DNA of 39,933 bases, taken from NCBI GenBank assembly GCA_025362075.1, contig JANYIL010000267.1, forward strand, positions 1 through 39,933. Direction: 5' to 3'. Every line of letters begins with the position of its first letter. The first letter of the stretch is position 1. Positions 15,982 to 39,933 of this stretch are shown piece after piece. The position numbers were made by a program, and so were the translations under genes. A model generated the notes under the pieces. That model saw nothing but the letters and a program-made list of their open reading frames with translations, searched no databases and had not been told where the DNA came from. This DNA comes from Chloracidobacterium sp. (GTDB lineage: Bacteria > Acidobacteriota > Blastocatellia > Pyrinomonadales > Pyrinomonadaceae).

Positions 15982-16074
15982 AGCGGGCAAAGGTCGGAAG
16001 TCGGCTGAATATTCAAATTGTCTATTGGGTTGAATTGGTTGAACTGGAAGGGATTAAAAAATAGGAGAAAAATC

Positions 16075-16635
16075 ATGAATACGAAAAGGCATTTACTAAT
16101 TTCGATTTTAACTGTTGCGGTGCTGGTAGGCAGCGCCCTTGGAATAATGGCCCAAGGCAAAAGGGACAAGATGAAGGGCAAGCCGATGGTCATGGCGAAG
16201 ATGATGAAATCGCCGCCTCACATGCTGATGATGGCTCATATGAAGAGCATGTCCGAGTTTGCGAAGACTCTCCATCATCAGGCAATGATGCCTATGGCTC
16301 TGGACGTTGAATTTGCCCGAGCGGCGGTTGGCGAGCTAAGACATAGCCTTGACGCAATGGACGCCATTCACCAAAAACACATGGCGACGATGAGCGATGA
16401 GATGAAGGCGAAGATGAAGATGATGATGGACAAAATGGACAAGGGCCAGGCGACGACAAAGGAACATGTCATGGCTCTCGAAACAGCCGTTCAGGCCGAT
16501 CAGCCGGACGCAAAGCAAGTGGCGATGCATGCGGGAGCCCTGCTCAAACACGTCGCCATGATGTCGAAGATGGGTGGTGGACAGAAGCCGGGCAAGAAGA
16601 TGGCGATGAAGAAGATGACGATGAAGCCGATGTAA
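16075..16635 (+). CDS. Secreted Met/Lys/His-rich protein, putative periplasmic metal-binding
   Basis: Signal peptide MNTKRHLLISILTVAVLVGSALGIMAQG, then a Met-rich body (about 34 Met in 186 aa by hand count). AGGAG ribosome-binding site upstream. Confidence 0.8.
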   Translation: MNTKRHLLISILTVAVLVGSALGIMAQGKRDKMKGKPMVMAKMMKSPPHMLMMAHMKSMSEFAKTLHHQAMMPMALDVEFARAAVGELRHSLDAMDAIHQKHMATMSDEMKAKMKMMMDKMDKGQATTKEHVMALETAVQADQPDAKQVAMHAGALLKHVAMMSKMGGGQKPGKKMAMKKMTMKPM

Positions 16636-16726: not shown

Positions 16727-18406
16727 ATGGAACGTCGTAAATTTATCGGTGCTTTAGCGGGCTCGGCGGCATTTGCCTCGTCAGGCGTTGGGTTGCTGTT
16801 GAGCGCCTGTAATACGGGACAATTTGAACAGCGGACGGATGCCATCAAGAAGGCCGGCGAGTCGTTCGCGGGCTATCCGCATGACCCGGTGCGGGCGGAG
16901 AATTTTACCAACCCGCTGTTCATCCCCGGGGTTGAGGGGCCCTTTGGGGTGTTAAGCGTAACCGATACGCCGCTTACACTTACAGCACAAGCGAAGACGT
17001 TTCCGATCCTTGAAGCCCGGGCCTCGCCATTTTTGCTGTACGAGACCAACTATGCAGGCAAGAGCTACCAAAATCCGATTTTTCGCATTAAGAGCGGCAA
17101 CCGTTTCAATGCCACTCTCCAAAACGGACTGAACGAGCCAACCATAATTCACTGGCATGGTCTGCGCCTCCCAGCGAATATGGATGGCCATCCAAACGAC
17201 AGCATCGCCGCGGGCAAGAACTACCCTTACGCATTCCCGGTCACCAATCGCGGCGGCACCTATTGGTATCACTCACATGCGGATCAGTTGACAGCAAAAC
17301 AGGCTTACGGCGGTCTGGCAAGCTTTTTTATCGTCGAGGATGATGATGAGGTGCGACTCTCAAGTGCTCTCGACCTCAAGCTTGGCGAAACCGATTTACC
17401 GTTAGTTATTCAGGACAAACGCTTCAACGCCAACGGCGAACTGGTTTACCAGCCGAGCATGATGGAGAAGATGATGGGGTATATCGGCGACATCGTGCTC
17501 GTCAACCTAACACCTAATCCCTTCCTTGAAATCAGCCCAAAAATCTATCGGTTCCGCTGTTTGAATGGCTCAAACGCACGTATCTACAAACTCTCTTTTA
17601 TGCGGGGCCTGGAGAAGATGGAGTATCGGGTGATCGGTACCGACGGGGGCCTGCTCGATCGGCCTTATCCGGCGACGGAGGTATTTCTCGCGCCTGCCGA
17701 ACGCGTGGACATATTGTTCAACGCCAGCCAGTTGCGTCAGGGCGAAACCGTGTTTCTTAAAAGCCTCGCTTTCGATCCGATGGAACAGGACGGCATGAAT
17801 GGCATGGGTGGTATGGATGGAGGCATGATGGGCGGCCGGGGAACCAACCAGTCGGCTCAGACGGGCGGCAATACCCGGCTTGCCAACGGGGTTGAGTTCA
17901 ACCTTTTAAAACTCATGGTGGCAAAAGCCGCGCAAGGGCCCCGCGAGGTACCCGCAAGTCTCTCAACCGTCGTGCCGATGGACACGGCCGGAGTCAGTCC
18001 GCGTCGAGTGACGCTCTCGCTTAATCACATGCAGTGGCTAATCAACGGCCAGAGTTACCGGCGTGACGCCGCGGCGTTTGAGGTCCGGCGCGCCGTTGAA
18101 GTGTGGGATATCGAAAACGCCACCAACAGTATGATCCATCCAATGCACCTGCACGGCTTTTCGTTTCAGGTGGTCGGGCGAAGCAAGAGCCCCGCGGCAC
18201 TGCGTCCCCTAGCAACGGCGAGCGGTGGACGTGTCATAACGGACCTCGGCTGGAAGGACACCGTAATGATTTGGCCCGGCGAAACTGTGCGTATCGCCAT
18301 TGACTTCCGGCAAGCGTTTCCGGGCGAACAGCTTTACTTATTTCATTGCCACAATCTGGAGCACGAAGACGGGAACATGATGGTTAACTACCGCATCCCT
18401 GCATAA
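16727..18406 (+). CDS. Multicopper oxidase (CueO/CotA-like), Tat-type signal with possible lipobox
   Basis: MERRKFIGALAGSAAFASSGVGLLLSAC; HWHGLRLP; YWYHSHADQLTAKQAYGGLAS; HPMHLHGFSFQVV; LFHCHNLEHEDGNMM; Met-rich loop MNGMGGMDGGMMGGRG. Confidence 0.95.
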   Translation: MERRKFIGALAGSAAFASSGVGLLLSACNTGQFEQRTDAIKKAGESFAGYPHDPVRAENFTNPLFIPGVEGPFGVLSVTDTPLTLTAQAKTFPILEARASPFLLYETNYAGKSYQNPIFRIKSGNRFNATLQNGLNEPTIIHWHGLRLPANMDGHPNDSIAAGKNYPYAFPVTNRGGTYWYHSHADQLTAKQAYGGLASFFIVEDDDEVRLSSALDLKLGETDLPLVIQDKRFNANGELVYQPSMMEKMMGYIGDIVLVNLTPNPFLEISPKIYRFRCLNGSNARIYKLSFMRGLEKMEYRVIGTDGGLLDRPYPATEVFLAPAERVDILFNASQLRQGETVFLKSLAFDPMEQDGMNGMGGMDGGMMGGRGTNQSAQTGGNTRLANGVEFNLLKLMVAKAAQGPREVPASLSTVVPMDTAGVSPRRVTLSLNHMQWLINGQSYRRDAAAFEVRRAVEVWDIENATNSMIHPMHLHGFSFQVVGRSKSPAALRPLATASGGRVITDLGWKDTVMIWPGETVRIAIDFRQAFPGEQLYLFHCHNLEHEDGNMMVNYRIPA

Positions 18407-20484: not shown

Positions 20485-20513
20485 GAGTTTGAGATTCAAC
20501 GAAACTCAAACTC
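20485..20513. promoter_or_regulatory. 9-bp perfect inverted repeat in the leader of the Cys-rich CBS gene
   Basis: GAGTTTGAG-N11-CTCAAACTC, with outer TGTTT/AAACA pairing (20474-20519), immediately before the AAAGGAG ribosome-binding site. Confidence 0.5.
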
Positions 20514-20534: not shown

Positions 20535-20951
20535 ATGAGTTGTTGTAGTGATGTAATGAAACCAATCGAAGCGTCGTCATGTTGTACGCCGGAGGACACT
20601 GCGGCCCACGCCGCGCAGGCAATGAAACATTCAGGCTGCGGGTGTGCACCTGTGGTTGAAGACACAGAAAGTCTGAAACTTGTCGGGGTCGTCACCGAGC
20701 GTGACATCTGTCACCATGTGGCGGCTGAGGACGTTAAAGCGTCAGAAGTGAGCGTCGAAAAGATCATGCGTCCCGCTTCGTCTTGTTGTAGTACGGATGA
20801 TTCTCTGGACGAAACGGCGAGGAAGCTTAACGAATACCAAACAACGAGTCTGCCAGTTATCGATCAGGCCGGCAGTTGTTGCGGCACCGTTAGCGCGCAC
20901 CACATTCTGGCGAACTCGCATGAGCAAGTTAGTAAAGCAGAGGTGACTTAA
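20535..20951 (+). CDS. CBS-domain-pair protein with Cys-Cys motifs
   Basis: MSCCSDVMKP...VGVVTERDICHH...VEKIMRP...LPVIDQAGSCCGTVSAHHIL; five CC/CxC pairs. Confidence 0.88.
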   Translation: MSCCSDVMKPIEASSCCTPEDTAAHAAQAMKHSGCGCAPVVEDTESLKLVGVVTERDICHHVAAEDVKASEVSVEKIMRPASSCCSTDDSLDETARKLNEYQTTSLPVIDQAGSCCGTVSAHHILANSHEQVSKAEVT

Positions 20952-20966
20952 AACCAAAGAAGCTAT

Positions 20967-21191
20967 ATGAAACTATCAAAATTCTTACATGTTATCAGCG
21001 TTGTTTTTGGACTAATTGGTTTAGCAATGTGGTTCTTCACCGTTCTTTTCTGGCCATCCGGAGTGGTTTGGTGGGGTTCGACCAGGGAATTTATGATGAT
21101 GTGCGCTGTGACATCTCTTCTGGCCGCAATCTGGCTCCAAATCGCAACAATTCATCACATAATGCTTGAAAAAAAAGGAGAGATAATCTGA
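20967..21191 (+). CDS. Small hypothetical membrane protein (74 aa)
   Basis: Two hydrophobic segments (VISVVFGLIGLAMWFFTVLFW; FMMMCAVTSLLAAIWLQ); co-directional with tight spacing. Confidence 0.55.
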   Translation: MKLSKFLHVISVVFGLIGLAMWFFTVLFWPSGVVWWGSTREFMMMCAVTSLLAAIWLQIATIHHIMLEKKGEII

Positions 21192-22116: not shown

Positions 22117-24792
22117 ATGAAAACAAGTGTTATTGAAGTACACGACATGCTGTCGGTATTGAGTGTGCTCGGGGTAGAAAAGCGGATCGGTGAGGTAGGC
22201 GGCGTCGAAAGCGTTACCGTCAATTATGCTGCCGAAAGTGCCACGGTACGATACGACGAAACCCGTCTTAGTATTGCCGACATCAGATCCGCCGTGCGCC
22301 AAAAAGGATATGAGTCCGATGGTGAATCCACGGTTCCGGATACGCTACCGACGGCTGAAACTCCCACGCCTGAGGAAAAGGTCAAGGCTGAAACCCAGTT
22401 GCCCGCGAGCGACCCGAAGGCTGAAGATCACGCCGCTCACAAGGCGGATGAAATGTCGCCGGCGAAGGCGGAAGATTCCGTCCGGATTCCCGCCTCGCAA
22501 CCCTCGGTTGTCCAATCGCCAAAGAAAAAAGTAGAAACTGAAACCCAATCGTCCGCGAGCGGTGTAAAGATGGAAGTTCCTCTGACGCCGACTGACAAAC
22601 CTTTGGAGGAAGAACCCAAAGCTGAGAAGAAAGTCGAGGCTGAGGATCAGGCGTCCGCGAGTGGAGCGAAACCTGAGAATCACGCCGGCCACAAGATGGA
22701 TGAAATGTCCCAGGACAAGGCGGAGATGGCTCAGGAGATGGGACACGGCACAGGAGCGTCAATGGAGGCGATGGTGCTCGGGATGCGTAATCGCTTCTTG
22801 TTCACTCTCCTTTTCACGGTCTTCATCTTGCTTTACACACCAATGTTCGGGAAACTAACCGGCTTTGAAATGCCATCGCCGTTCGGCTGGTCAAAGGAAC
22901 TGATGGGTTTTATTTTTGCCACTCCCATCGTTCTTTACGGCGGTTCGGTCTTTTTCGTAGGAGCCTATCGAGCCCTAAAGAAAGGTATCGCCAACATGGC
23001 GGTGCTAGTTTCGCTGTCTGTTTTGGCGGGTTATTCGTTCAGCGTGGGTGCGACGTTTTTTTTCCAGGCCGATGTGTTCTACGAAGCTGTCGCCGTGCTG
23101 CTTGTTTTTATTCTTTTGGGTCATTGGCTGGAGATGAGGGCGCGGGCTGGGGCGTCTAAAGCTGTTCAGGCACTCCTGAATCTAGCGCCACGGAAAGCGA
23201 CCGTGATACGAGACGGCCAGAGCGTCGAAGTGCCGACCTCAGAAGTTGTGATGGACGATATTGTGATGATTCGTCCCGGCGACAAGATTCCGGTTGATGG
23301 CATCATTACCGACGGGCAGTCGAACGTAGACGAGTCAATGATCACAGGCGAAAGTATGCCTGTGGCAAAGAAGGTCGGTGACCAGGTAATCGGAGCGACA
23401 ATAAACAAGACAGGCACATTTCGTTTCAAGGCGACTAAGGTCGGCGCCGATACTGCTCTCGCGCAGATCGTTAAACTCGTCCAAGACGCCCAGAACTCCA
23501 AGGCGCCTTCGCAACGAATCGCCGACACCGCAGCTCAGGTGCTCACCATCTCCGCAGTTGTCATCGGAATTGCGACTTTTGTCGGATGGTTCTGGTTCGC
23601 CGGGTCGACGCTGGTTTTCGCTATGCTGTTAGCGATCACGGTCGTCGTTATCGCGTGTCCCGACGCTCTTGGTCTTGCGACGCCGATGGCGATCATGGTG
23701 TCGAGCGGCAAGGGAGCTCAAAACGGAATTCTCTTCAAGGACGCAACAGCTCTTGAAGACGTTGGCAGACTGCAGGCAATAATCTTCGACAAAACGGGTA
23801 CGCTTACGATCGGGCAGCCACAAGTAGTAGAGATCGTCGCCGATGGAAAACCTGTCAGTGATAAAGAATTGCTCCAACTCGTAGCTTCGCTGGAACAGTC
23901 GAGTGAGCATCCTCTGGCACAAGCCATGATCGAGAAAGCCAAGGCTGATGGCCTGACCCTAAGTTCGCCGACGAATTTCGAATCGATTCCCGGGCAAGGC
24001 GCGCGTGCGACAGTTGACGGACGCACGGTTCTTGCTGGCAATCGCAAGCTAATGGACGAGAACAAAATCGATCTTGACACGCTTAACGAGCGGGCAAAGG
24101 CCCTTGAGGAAAAAGGCAACACGGTCATCTATTCAGCCATTGACGGTTCTTCCGGAGGACTGATCGCCATTGCCGACGCAATTCGCCCGAGTGCGAAACA
24201 AGCGATCAACCAATTACTCGCCTTAGGTGTCGAGGTGGCGATGTTGACCGGCGACAACCAAGGTACGGCAAACCTGGTCGCTAAAGAACTCGGTATCAAG
24301 ACGGTCTTCGCCGAGGTCCAACCGGGCCAAAAAGCTGAGAAAGTCAAAGAAATGCAAGAGCGGGGTCGGCGCGTCGGGATGGTTGGCGACGGCATAAACG
24401 ACGCACCGGCGCTAGCGCAAGCCAATGTCGGCATGGCGATCGGCGCCGGGGCGGACGTAGCAATGGAAGCGGCCGATGTCGTCTTAATGAAAAGCGACCC
24501 GTTCGATGTTATCGGGGCGATCCTCCTGAGCCGCGCGACGCGGCGGAAGATGCGGCAAAATTTGTGGTGGGCGGCCGGATACAACGTCATTGCATTTCCG
24601 CTCGCCGCTGGCTTGCTTTACCCCTCGATCGGGTTGCTGCTGACCCCGGAGATCGCCGCGTTTTCTATGTCCGGCTCGACTTTGGTTGTGGTCGCCAACG
24701 CGCTTTTGTTGAAGCGCGTGAAGATGAGAGGAACCGAACAGATTGAAACGACGCGCCGTGATGAGGTGAAAACCACTGAAGGAGAAAAATGA
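22117..24792 (+). CDS. P1B heavy-metal-translocating ATPase, CopB-like with CPD motif and repeat-containing His/Met linker
   Basis: [66 protein letters not shown]8 [14 protein letters not shown]. Confidence 0.93.
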
Positions 24793-38988: not shown

Positions 38989-39933
38989 ATGAACCAATCG
39001 GTTCTGAAATTCGAGCTGAAAATGGCTAAACATCTTATGGAAAAAGTAATCGATCCAATTTGTGGTATGACGGTTTCGCCGGACACTGCGGCCGGTCAAG
39101 ACGAACATGACGGCCAAATGTATTATTTCTGTTCTAAAGAATGTTTGGAGAAATTTAAGGTGAATGTAATGCCCAACGAAGGTTTGGCAGAGACAGAGGA
39201 AAAAAAAGATTTCGGCCACGAAGGTAAAATGACAGCGGCACCGCTTGGTGGTGAAATCGACCCTGTTTGTGGAATGACTGTAAATCCCGAGACGGCAGCC
39301 GGGAACTATGCCTACTTGGGTAAAACCTATTACTTTTGTTCTCCGGGCTGCTCGGAAAAATTCAAGAATGGTCCTGAATCGTTTTTGAAACCAAAAGACG
39401 AACCCCAAAATGTTCCCGGAGATGTCGAATACACATGCCCCATGCACCCACAGATCGTTCAAATTGGTCCCGGCAGCTGCCCTATCTGCGGCATGGCATT
39501 AGAACCAAGGATAGTCAGTTTGGACGATAAGCCCGACGCCGAACTCGGTTATATGACGAGACGTTTTTGGTTTTGCGTCTTATTGACTGTGCCTGTTTTT
39601 GCGTCAGCAACGTTGGAAATGGTTCCGACTTTCGAGCGAATGGTTCCAATGCGAGTTTCGCTATGGGTCCAGTTTTTCCTGGCCACGCCCGTAGTTTTGT
39701 GGGGTGGTTTCCCCTTTTTTCAACGGGGCTGGGCCTCGATCAAGAATCTTAGCCCAAACATGTTCACGCTGATCGCGGTGGGCACGACCGCAGCCCTGAT
39801 ATACAGCATAATCGGTTTGTTTTTTCCGCAACTTTTTCCCTCCTCGTTTCGCGGTCATTCAGGGGAAGTCCCCGTTTATTTCGAGGCAGCAGCGGTAATC
39901 ACGACACTGGTTTTGTTGGGTCAGGTCCTTGAA
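38989..39933 (+). CDS. Copper-type P1B ATPase N-terminus with two YHS domains and a heavy-metal-binding domain (runs off window)
   Basis: [16 protein letters not shown]...[29 protein letters not shown]...[39 protein letters not shown]; ATPase TM region [46 protein letters not shown]. The frame is open to the edge and absent from the supplied ORF track. Confidence 0.9.

Follow-up and report, generated by a model that had tools for sequence, protein, structure and literature searches.

CBS modules are known to sense adenine nucleotides. The module of MgtE is fused to its transporter and, to our knowledge, senses Mg2+ without cysteine pairs; it differs in both respects from the stand-alone, cysteine-paired CBS protein described here, which we call CBS-C. 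HRP1 (Rv2626c; PDB 1XKF and 1Y5H) of Mycobacterium tuberculosis belongs to a hypoxia/dormancy regulon. Like CBS-C, HRP1 is a stand-alone CBS pair, and the title of its 1XKF structure names two coordinated zinc ions. The CBS module of MgtE senses Mg2+ and regulates the transporter, and thus resembles CBS-C, as proposed below, in being a CBS module that handles a metal (PMC6429129). The canonical nucleotide cavity of such modules is composed of the linker before β1, strand β2, and the last strand and following helix of the other motif, and is marked by the motifs hyy'h'P and GhhT/SxxD (PMC6429129). The CBS fold itself is common; what is new here is the link of cysteine-rich CBS proteins to copper. 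Searches of one open-access full-text collection returned no paper that connects CBS proteins with copper resistance or with metal binding by paired cysteines. CBS-C is real and conserved and, judged from sequence, is probably a copper-associated CBS variant that binds metal.

CBS-C is encoded within a 39,933-nucleotide stretch of Chloracidobacterium sp. DNA (the window), where it has a multicopper oxidase/Met-rich group on one side and a P1B-type ATPase on the other:

16018..16635, + strand: small Met-rich protein, no Pfam or NCBIfam match
16727..18406, + strand: multicopper oxidase, CueO-like (Cu-oxidase_2 3.9e-26, Cu-oxidase_3 2.9e-22)
20535..20951, + strand: CBS-C, ATG start, 138 amino acids plus stop
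20967..21191, + strand: membrane protein of 74 amino acids, 15 bp after the end of CBS-C
22117..24792, + strand: heavy-metal/copper P1B-type ATPase (TIGR01525 624 bits, TIGR01511 605 bits, HMA 9e-11)
38989..39933, + strand: start of another P1B ATPase, bearing CGM/FCS (YHS-like) motifs and cut by the contig end

The gene has a good Shine-Dalgarno sequence (AAAGGAG) immediately 5' of the ATG. The small, soluble protein contains two CBS domains (PF00571 in two stretches, E 2.5e-20, 73 bits against a gathering cut-off of 24), with no apparent signal peptide and no DNA-binding domain. A perfect 9-bp inverted repeat, GAGTTTGAG...CTCAAACTC, precedes it at 20485–20513; the expected number of such repeats across the window is 0.02. 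We discarded this repeat as a candidate regulator, as it occurs in one copy in the window and has an unremarkable RNA fold (z –1.1). Promoter and terminator scans gave no excess over shuffled sequences.

The initial annotation had reported eleven cysteines, with five CC or CxC pairs among them, within these 138 amino acids. A recount gave the same number, made up of four CC pairs, one CxC pair, and a lone cysteine. All lie on the + strand:

20541..20546, + strand: C3-C4, MSCC N-terminus, in a low-confidence tail of the structural model; invariant in the family
20580..20585, + strand: C16-C17, just before or at β1 of CBS1 (block 1 of cavity S2, by homology); 95–100% conserved
20637..20645, + strand: C35-G-C37, in the h-y-y'-h'-P adenine motif of CBS1, at the start of β2
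20709..20711, + strand: C59, in DIC, within the first turns of the helix that follows GVVTERD; invariant
20784..20789, + strand: C84-C85, β1 of CBS2, repeat-equivalent of C16-C17; invariant
20877..20882, + strand: C115-C116, start of β3 of CBS2, just before GTVS; invariant

At the cysteine content of the window's genes (0.92%), eleven or more cysteines in 138 amino acids would arise with P ~8e-8, and 0.01 CC pairs are expected. A scan of the genome collection yielded 19 relatives of CBS-C, two of them decayed, and about 18 intact relatives are 61–90% identical; the scan patterns included MSCCSDVM and so favor members with that start, and unbiased whole-protein searches agreed. In the 19-member alignment, nine cysteine columns are invariant and C16 and C35 are conserved at 95%, against an average of 71% for the other columns. 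The position next to C59 (position 60) is Cys in 14 of the 19 members, forming CC there, and His in the other five. The window copy and a second, intact copy in the same genome (G000:C251, 90% identical) differ with dN 0.05 and dS 0.52. The 95–100% conservation of the cysteine columns, together with this low dN relative to dS, indicates from alignment that the cysteines of CBS-C are under selection, and with the compositional P it rules out chance cysteine richness.

The family is rare, occurring in five of 396 Acidobacteriota genomes and in three of 36 further genomes from the genus, with a decayed copy in one of the three. Its members come from MAGs labeled Acidobacteriota, Gemmatimonadota (Gemmatimonadaceae), Deltaproteobacteria, and Nitrospirota (Nitrospira/Nitrospiraceae). 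This patchy distribution suggests horizontal transfer of CBS-C, with mis-binning of MAGs as the alternative. Decayed copies with stops or frameshifts occur at three loci (L009, L027, and L028), implying that CBS-C is dispensable in some lineages.

An AlphaFold2 model built from 18 family members predicts a CBS pair. The best model has a mean pLDDT of 83.7 and a pTM of 0.76 and is weak at residues 1–3 and 131–138, the other four models being weaker (52–76). Predicted strands span residues 37–41 and 48–54 in CBS1 and 105–109 and 114–120 in CBS2. A Foldseek search of the PDB with the model gave 412 matches (E≤0.001) headed by CBS pairs, and model and search together assign CBS-C to the Bateman-module fold. 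With canonical PF00571/Bateman modules it shares two repeats, the order of strands and helices, and GVVTERD in CBS1; it differs from them in its eleven conserved cysteines and in a CBS2 without the Asp of GhhT/SxxD. The nearest stand-alone CBS pair in the PDB is HRP1 (1XKF; E 1.4e-9, TM 0.68–0.71), which is about 24% identical to CBS-C and for which no copper context was seen. The likeness is one of fold, and orthology to HRP1 did not hold, in that other CBS proteins score equally well or better.

The placement of the cysteines is suggestive with respect to the nucleotide cavities. The sequence C35-G-C37-A-P is itself the first cavity motif, hyy'h'P. By analogy with the canonical cavity, we infer that C16/C17 and C35/C37 occupy two of the three blocks of cavity S2, and C84/C85 and C59 two blocks of cavity S1. 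C115/C116 lie on an S2 strand but may be too distant from the ligand end of S2. While CBS1 retains GVVTERD, CBS2 reads GTVSAHH and lacks the ribose-binding Asp, and some Bateman modules use a single site. This loss in CBS2 and retention in CBS1 suggest that S2 has possibly turned into a metal site and that S1 possibly still binds nucleotide. It had also been proposed that cysteine pairs at equivalent positions in both repeats form two symmetric sites. Half of this proposal holds: the SSCC-TPED and SSCC-STDD pairs are equivalent, at β1 of CBS1 and CBS2, respectively. The second pairing fails in the alignment and in the secondary structure of the model, as SGCGC belongs to β2 of CBS1 and GSCCG to β3 of CBS2. 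C35 and C37, which precede and begin β2 ahead of PVV, have T103 and S105 as repeat partners, and the partners of C115 and C116 are L49 and V50.

Pairs of this kind could instead constitute a thiol redox switch, in which disulfides formed under oxidative or copper stress would alter the Bateman module. CC and CxC are plausible redox motifs, and copper stress is also thiol stress, but disulfides between adjacent cysteines are rare and no thioredoxin-type partner recurs in the family neighborhoods; we consider a redox switch quite improbable.

The extent to which these cysteines set CBS-C apart was evaluated by aligning the family with 55 ordinary CBS homologues (most at E≤1e-9), which were taken from the genomes that carry the family and more widely from the genus and the phylum. 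Cysteine was found in this background at column 17 in 64% of proteins, at 35 in 53%, at 85 in 33%, at 4 and 59 in 31%, at 16 in 27%, at 115 in 24%, and at 37 and 116 in 22%, rates that are inflated because the homologues were found with a Cys-rich query. Only C3 (0%, absent from 54 background proteins) and C84 (one of 55, 2%) are nearly private to CBS-C. The initial description of the decoration as not typical of the family was thus too strong, and uniqueness of the decoration as a whole is rejected by the alignment. The suggestion to look for other CBS proteins with CC motifs was borne out by a widespread, unnamed Cys-rich subfamily with up to 10 cysteines (motifs ACC, DCGC, DICC, and CCG; L069, L071, L072, L074, and L059). 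CBS-C itself carries the cysteines that define this subfamily, at columns 16/17, 35/37, and 115/116. The fullest members share with it the cysteines at columns 16, 17, 35, 37, 59, 115, and 116 as well as the fold (e.g., L069, L074, and L092). They differ in having no MSCC and no CC at β1 of CBS2, in keeping a QAD motif in CBS2, and in having CC at columns 94/95 instead. Identity between CBS-C and the subfamily is 30–38%, followed by a gap up to about 61%. Given this coherent subfamily and the frequency of Cys in the background columns, the sequences indicate that the CBS-C decoration takes an existing tendency to its extreme and is no singular invention.

These comparisons bear on a competing explanation, which we rate as unlikely: CBS-C would be a general stress or dormancy CBS protein sensing adenylates, like those of universal-stress islands, its cysteines would fill small buried positions, and the copper genes would share horizontally moving islands with it. 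Cysteine is indeed common at core positions of ordinary CBS relatives. At C17, C35, C59, C85, and C115, Cys takes the place of a small or hydrophobic residue, and related CBS proteins frequently have Cys at these positions too, which by alignment would count against a metal site. C3, C4, C16, C84, and C116, in contrast, are conserved though these are not typical hydrophobic core positions. The window itself has the look of a stress island, with universal stress proteins, phosphoketolase, acetate kinase, a PNPOx-like protein, CYTH/CHAD, and a sigma-54 regulator.

Copper genes recur around CBS-C. The window's multicopper oxidase has the CueO model as its best NCBIfam match, under that model's cut-off. 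At two other family loci (L012 and L013), a homologue of the Met-rich protein lies directly upstream of CBS-C, which is preceded there by the Met-rich gene and CusB, and a homologue of the 74-amino acid membrane protein adjoins CBS-C too. At a further locus (L032), a multicopper oxidase is two genes upstream. The CusA and CusB families are each present at seven family loci and multicopper oxidase at five. P1B ATPases, counted when TIGR01525 scored over its cut-off, occur within 8 kb at nine of 21 family loci versus 0.17 expected (Poisson-binomial P ~2e-14, which overstates independence because the loci share ancestry), and within 8 kb of ordinary CBS genes in the same genomes at none of eight. 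At three loci (L034, L020, and L033), a same-strand P1B ATPase is 31–39 bp from CBS-C, and some of the P1B ATPases within 8 kb share an apparent operon with it. Such close packing with P1B ATPase, CusB, and Met-rich genes speaks against a general stress protein, while the presence of CBS-C loci without copper genes speaks for one. Four loci (L010, L011, L014, and L025) have MFS, phosphoketolase, and glycosidase neighbors and no complete copper exporter, and these count against the copper reading. The association with copper genes is nevertheless strong. Overall, cysteine conservation and copper-efflux neighbors, both read from sequence, favor a metal role over chance.

The P1B ATPase next to CBS-C in the window (22117..24792) has a CPD motif instead of CPC or CPH, has Ser in place of both ligand Cys in its HMA domain (MLSVLS versus the expected MxCxxC), and contains one Cys in 891 amino acids. 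CPD-type ATPases are present in four of 396 genomes of the phylum, three of which also hold CBS-C. We rejected this type as an obligate partner, since ATPases of the CPC or CPH type occur at other CBS-C loci.

The Cys-rich subfamily provided an independent replicate of the copper association. Its members occur on plasmids of Deinococcus and Alphaproteobacteria (L092–L098, L100, and L101), where they bear no annotation beyond "CBS domain-containing protein" and have copper-gene neighborhoods. Among annotated plasmids, copper or metal genes lay within 7 kb of six of eight Cys-rich CBS genes (7–9 Cys, at least 3 CC) and of none of 12 Cys-poor ones (Fisher P 0.0007, which, like the other P values, is optimistic because plasmid neighbors were scored by eye from product names and because MAG loci and plasmids are phylogenetically non-independent). 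The neighbors were P1B ATPase, multicopper oxidase, DUF411, CueR, or SCO plus metal transporters. Positive plasmids were those of Deinococcus, Sulfitobacter, Erythrobacteraceae, Limimaricola, Sphingorhabdus, and Marinovum, the last on SCO and metal transporters; those of Nitratireductor and Microvirga (SCO and oxidase assembly only) were counted as negative. Excluding Marinovum gave five of eight (hand-calculated P about 0.004). In a sequence-based test, multicopper oxidase, P1B, and CusA sequences of the window and the family, used as queries, matched six of nine Cys-rich and none of 13 Cys-poor plasmid loci (P about 0.001, by hand). The lack of copper enrichment beside Cys-poor plasmid CBS genes further disfavors the general stress explanation. 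The plasmids also bear on whether zinc or some other metal is bound in place of copper, in a structural or sensing role as in zinc-bound HRP1. HRP1 is the closest stand-alone CBS-pair fold and carries zinc, and CDF/ZIP genes lie near some plasmid relatives; against this, the neighbors that recur belong to copper systems (multicopper oxidase, Cu P1B, CusA-type, DUF411, and CueR), and we judge a metal other than copper to be improbable.

Since its cysteines are conserved and copper-resistance genes are unusually often adjacent to it and to the looser group of Cys-rich relatives, CBS-C probably binds copper. The specific role we propose from sequence, with roughly even confidence, is that of a Bateman module binding Cu(I) or another soft metal in the service of copper-detoxification operons, as either a buffer/chaperone or a sensor. 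CBS-C would be cytosolic and stand-alone, with its conserved thiolate pairs holding Cu(I) or a soft thiophilic metal such as Ag(I). In either role it would serve copper export, with its cysteines placed around the ancestral nucleotide clefts. As a sensor, it would change shape upon metal binding and act on a partner such as an exporter; with no DNA-binding domain, it would act through a protein. A speculative candidate for this partner is the neighboring CPD-type P1B ATPase, and CPC- and CPH-type ATPases adjoin CBS-C as well. What the data establish is the sequence, its conservation, the assigned fold, and the association with copper genes. The present evidence fits buffer/chaperone and sensor alike, and the identity of the metal and the geometry of its site are likewise inferred.

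A bolder version of the sensor, which we hold to be doubtful, is that Cys-paired CBS proteins make up an unrecognized class of soluble copper sensors. Thiolate-bound Cu(I) in the former adenine pocket would drive the Bateman module, and a possible nucleotide in the other pocket would tie export to adenylate status; such proteins may serve P1B exporters that have lost their N-terminal Cys ligands. A soluble copper-handling class of CBS proteins, if true, would be a new component of bacterial copper homeostasis and would give a role to a widespread subfamily with a generic annotation. The proposal makes testable whether a nucleotide-sensing pocket became a metal site.

The genome harbors a third copy of CBS-C (L033:7025-7399, on G000:C288; 76% identical), which has an in-frame TGA exactly at the invariant C17 codon ("CU" replacing CC) and His in place of C4. 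The remaining frame is open and, compared with the window copy, shows dN 0.18 and dS 2.0. A tRNA-Sec with anticodon tca (67.6 bits) is encoded in the genome, as is selA (538 bits), and no selB over cut-off was found in the assembly, which is 88% complete. There was no Rfam match behind the TGA codon, and the RNA fold after the C17 codon is comparable in the window's Cys copy and in the TGA copy. Selenocysteine is possible in the third copy, and recent decay is at least as likely.

Positions 1936–38924 of the window form a stress/fermentation island, which also contains Nramp and two further P-type ATPases. Its MFS, phosphoketolase, and 432-amino acid protein (no NCBIfam match) are 80–88% identical to those at CBS-C loci in MAGs of other groups, a level of identity that suggests that the island is mobile.
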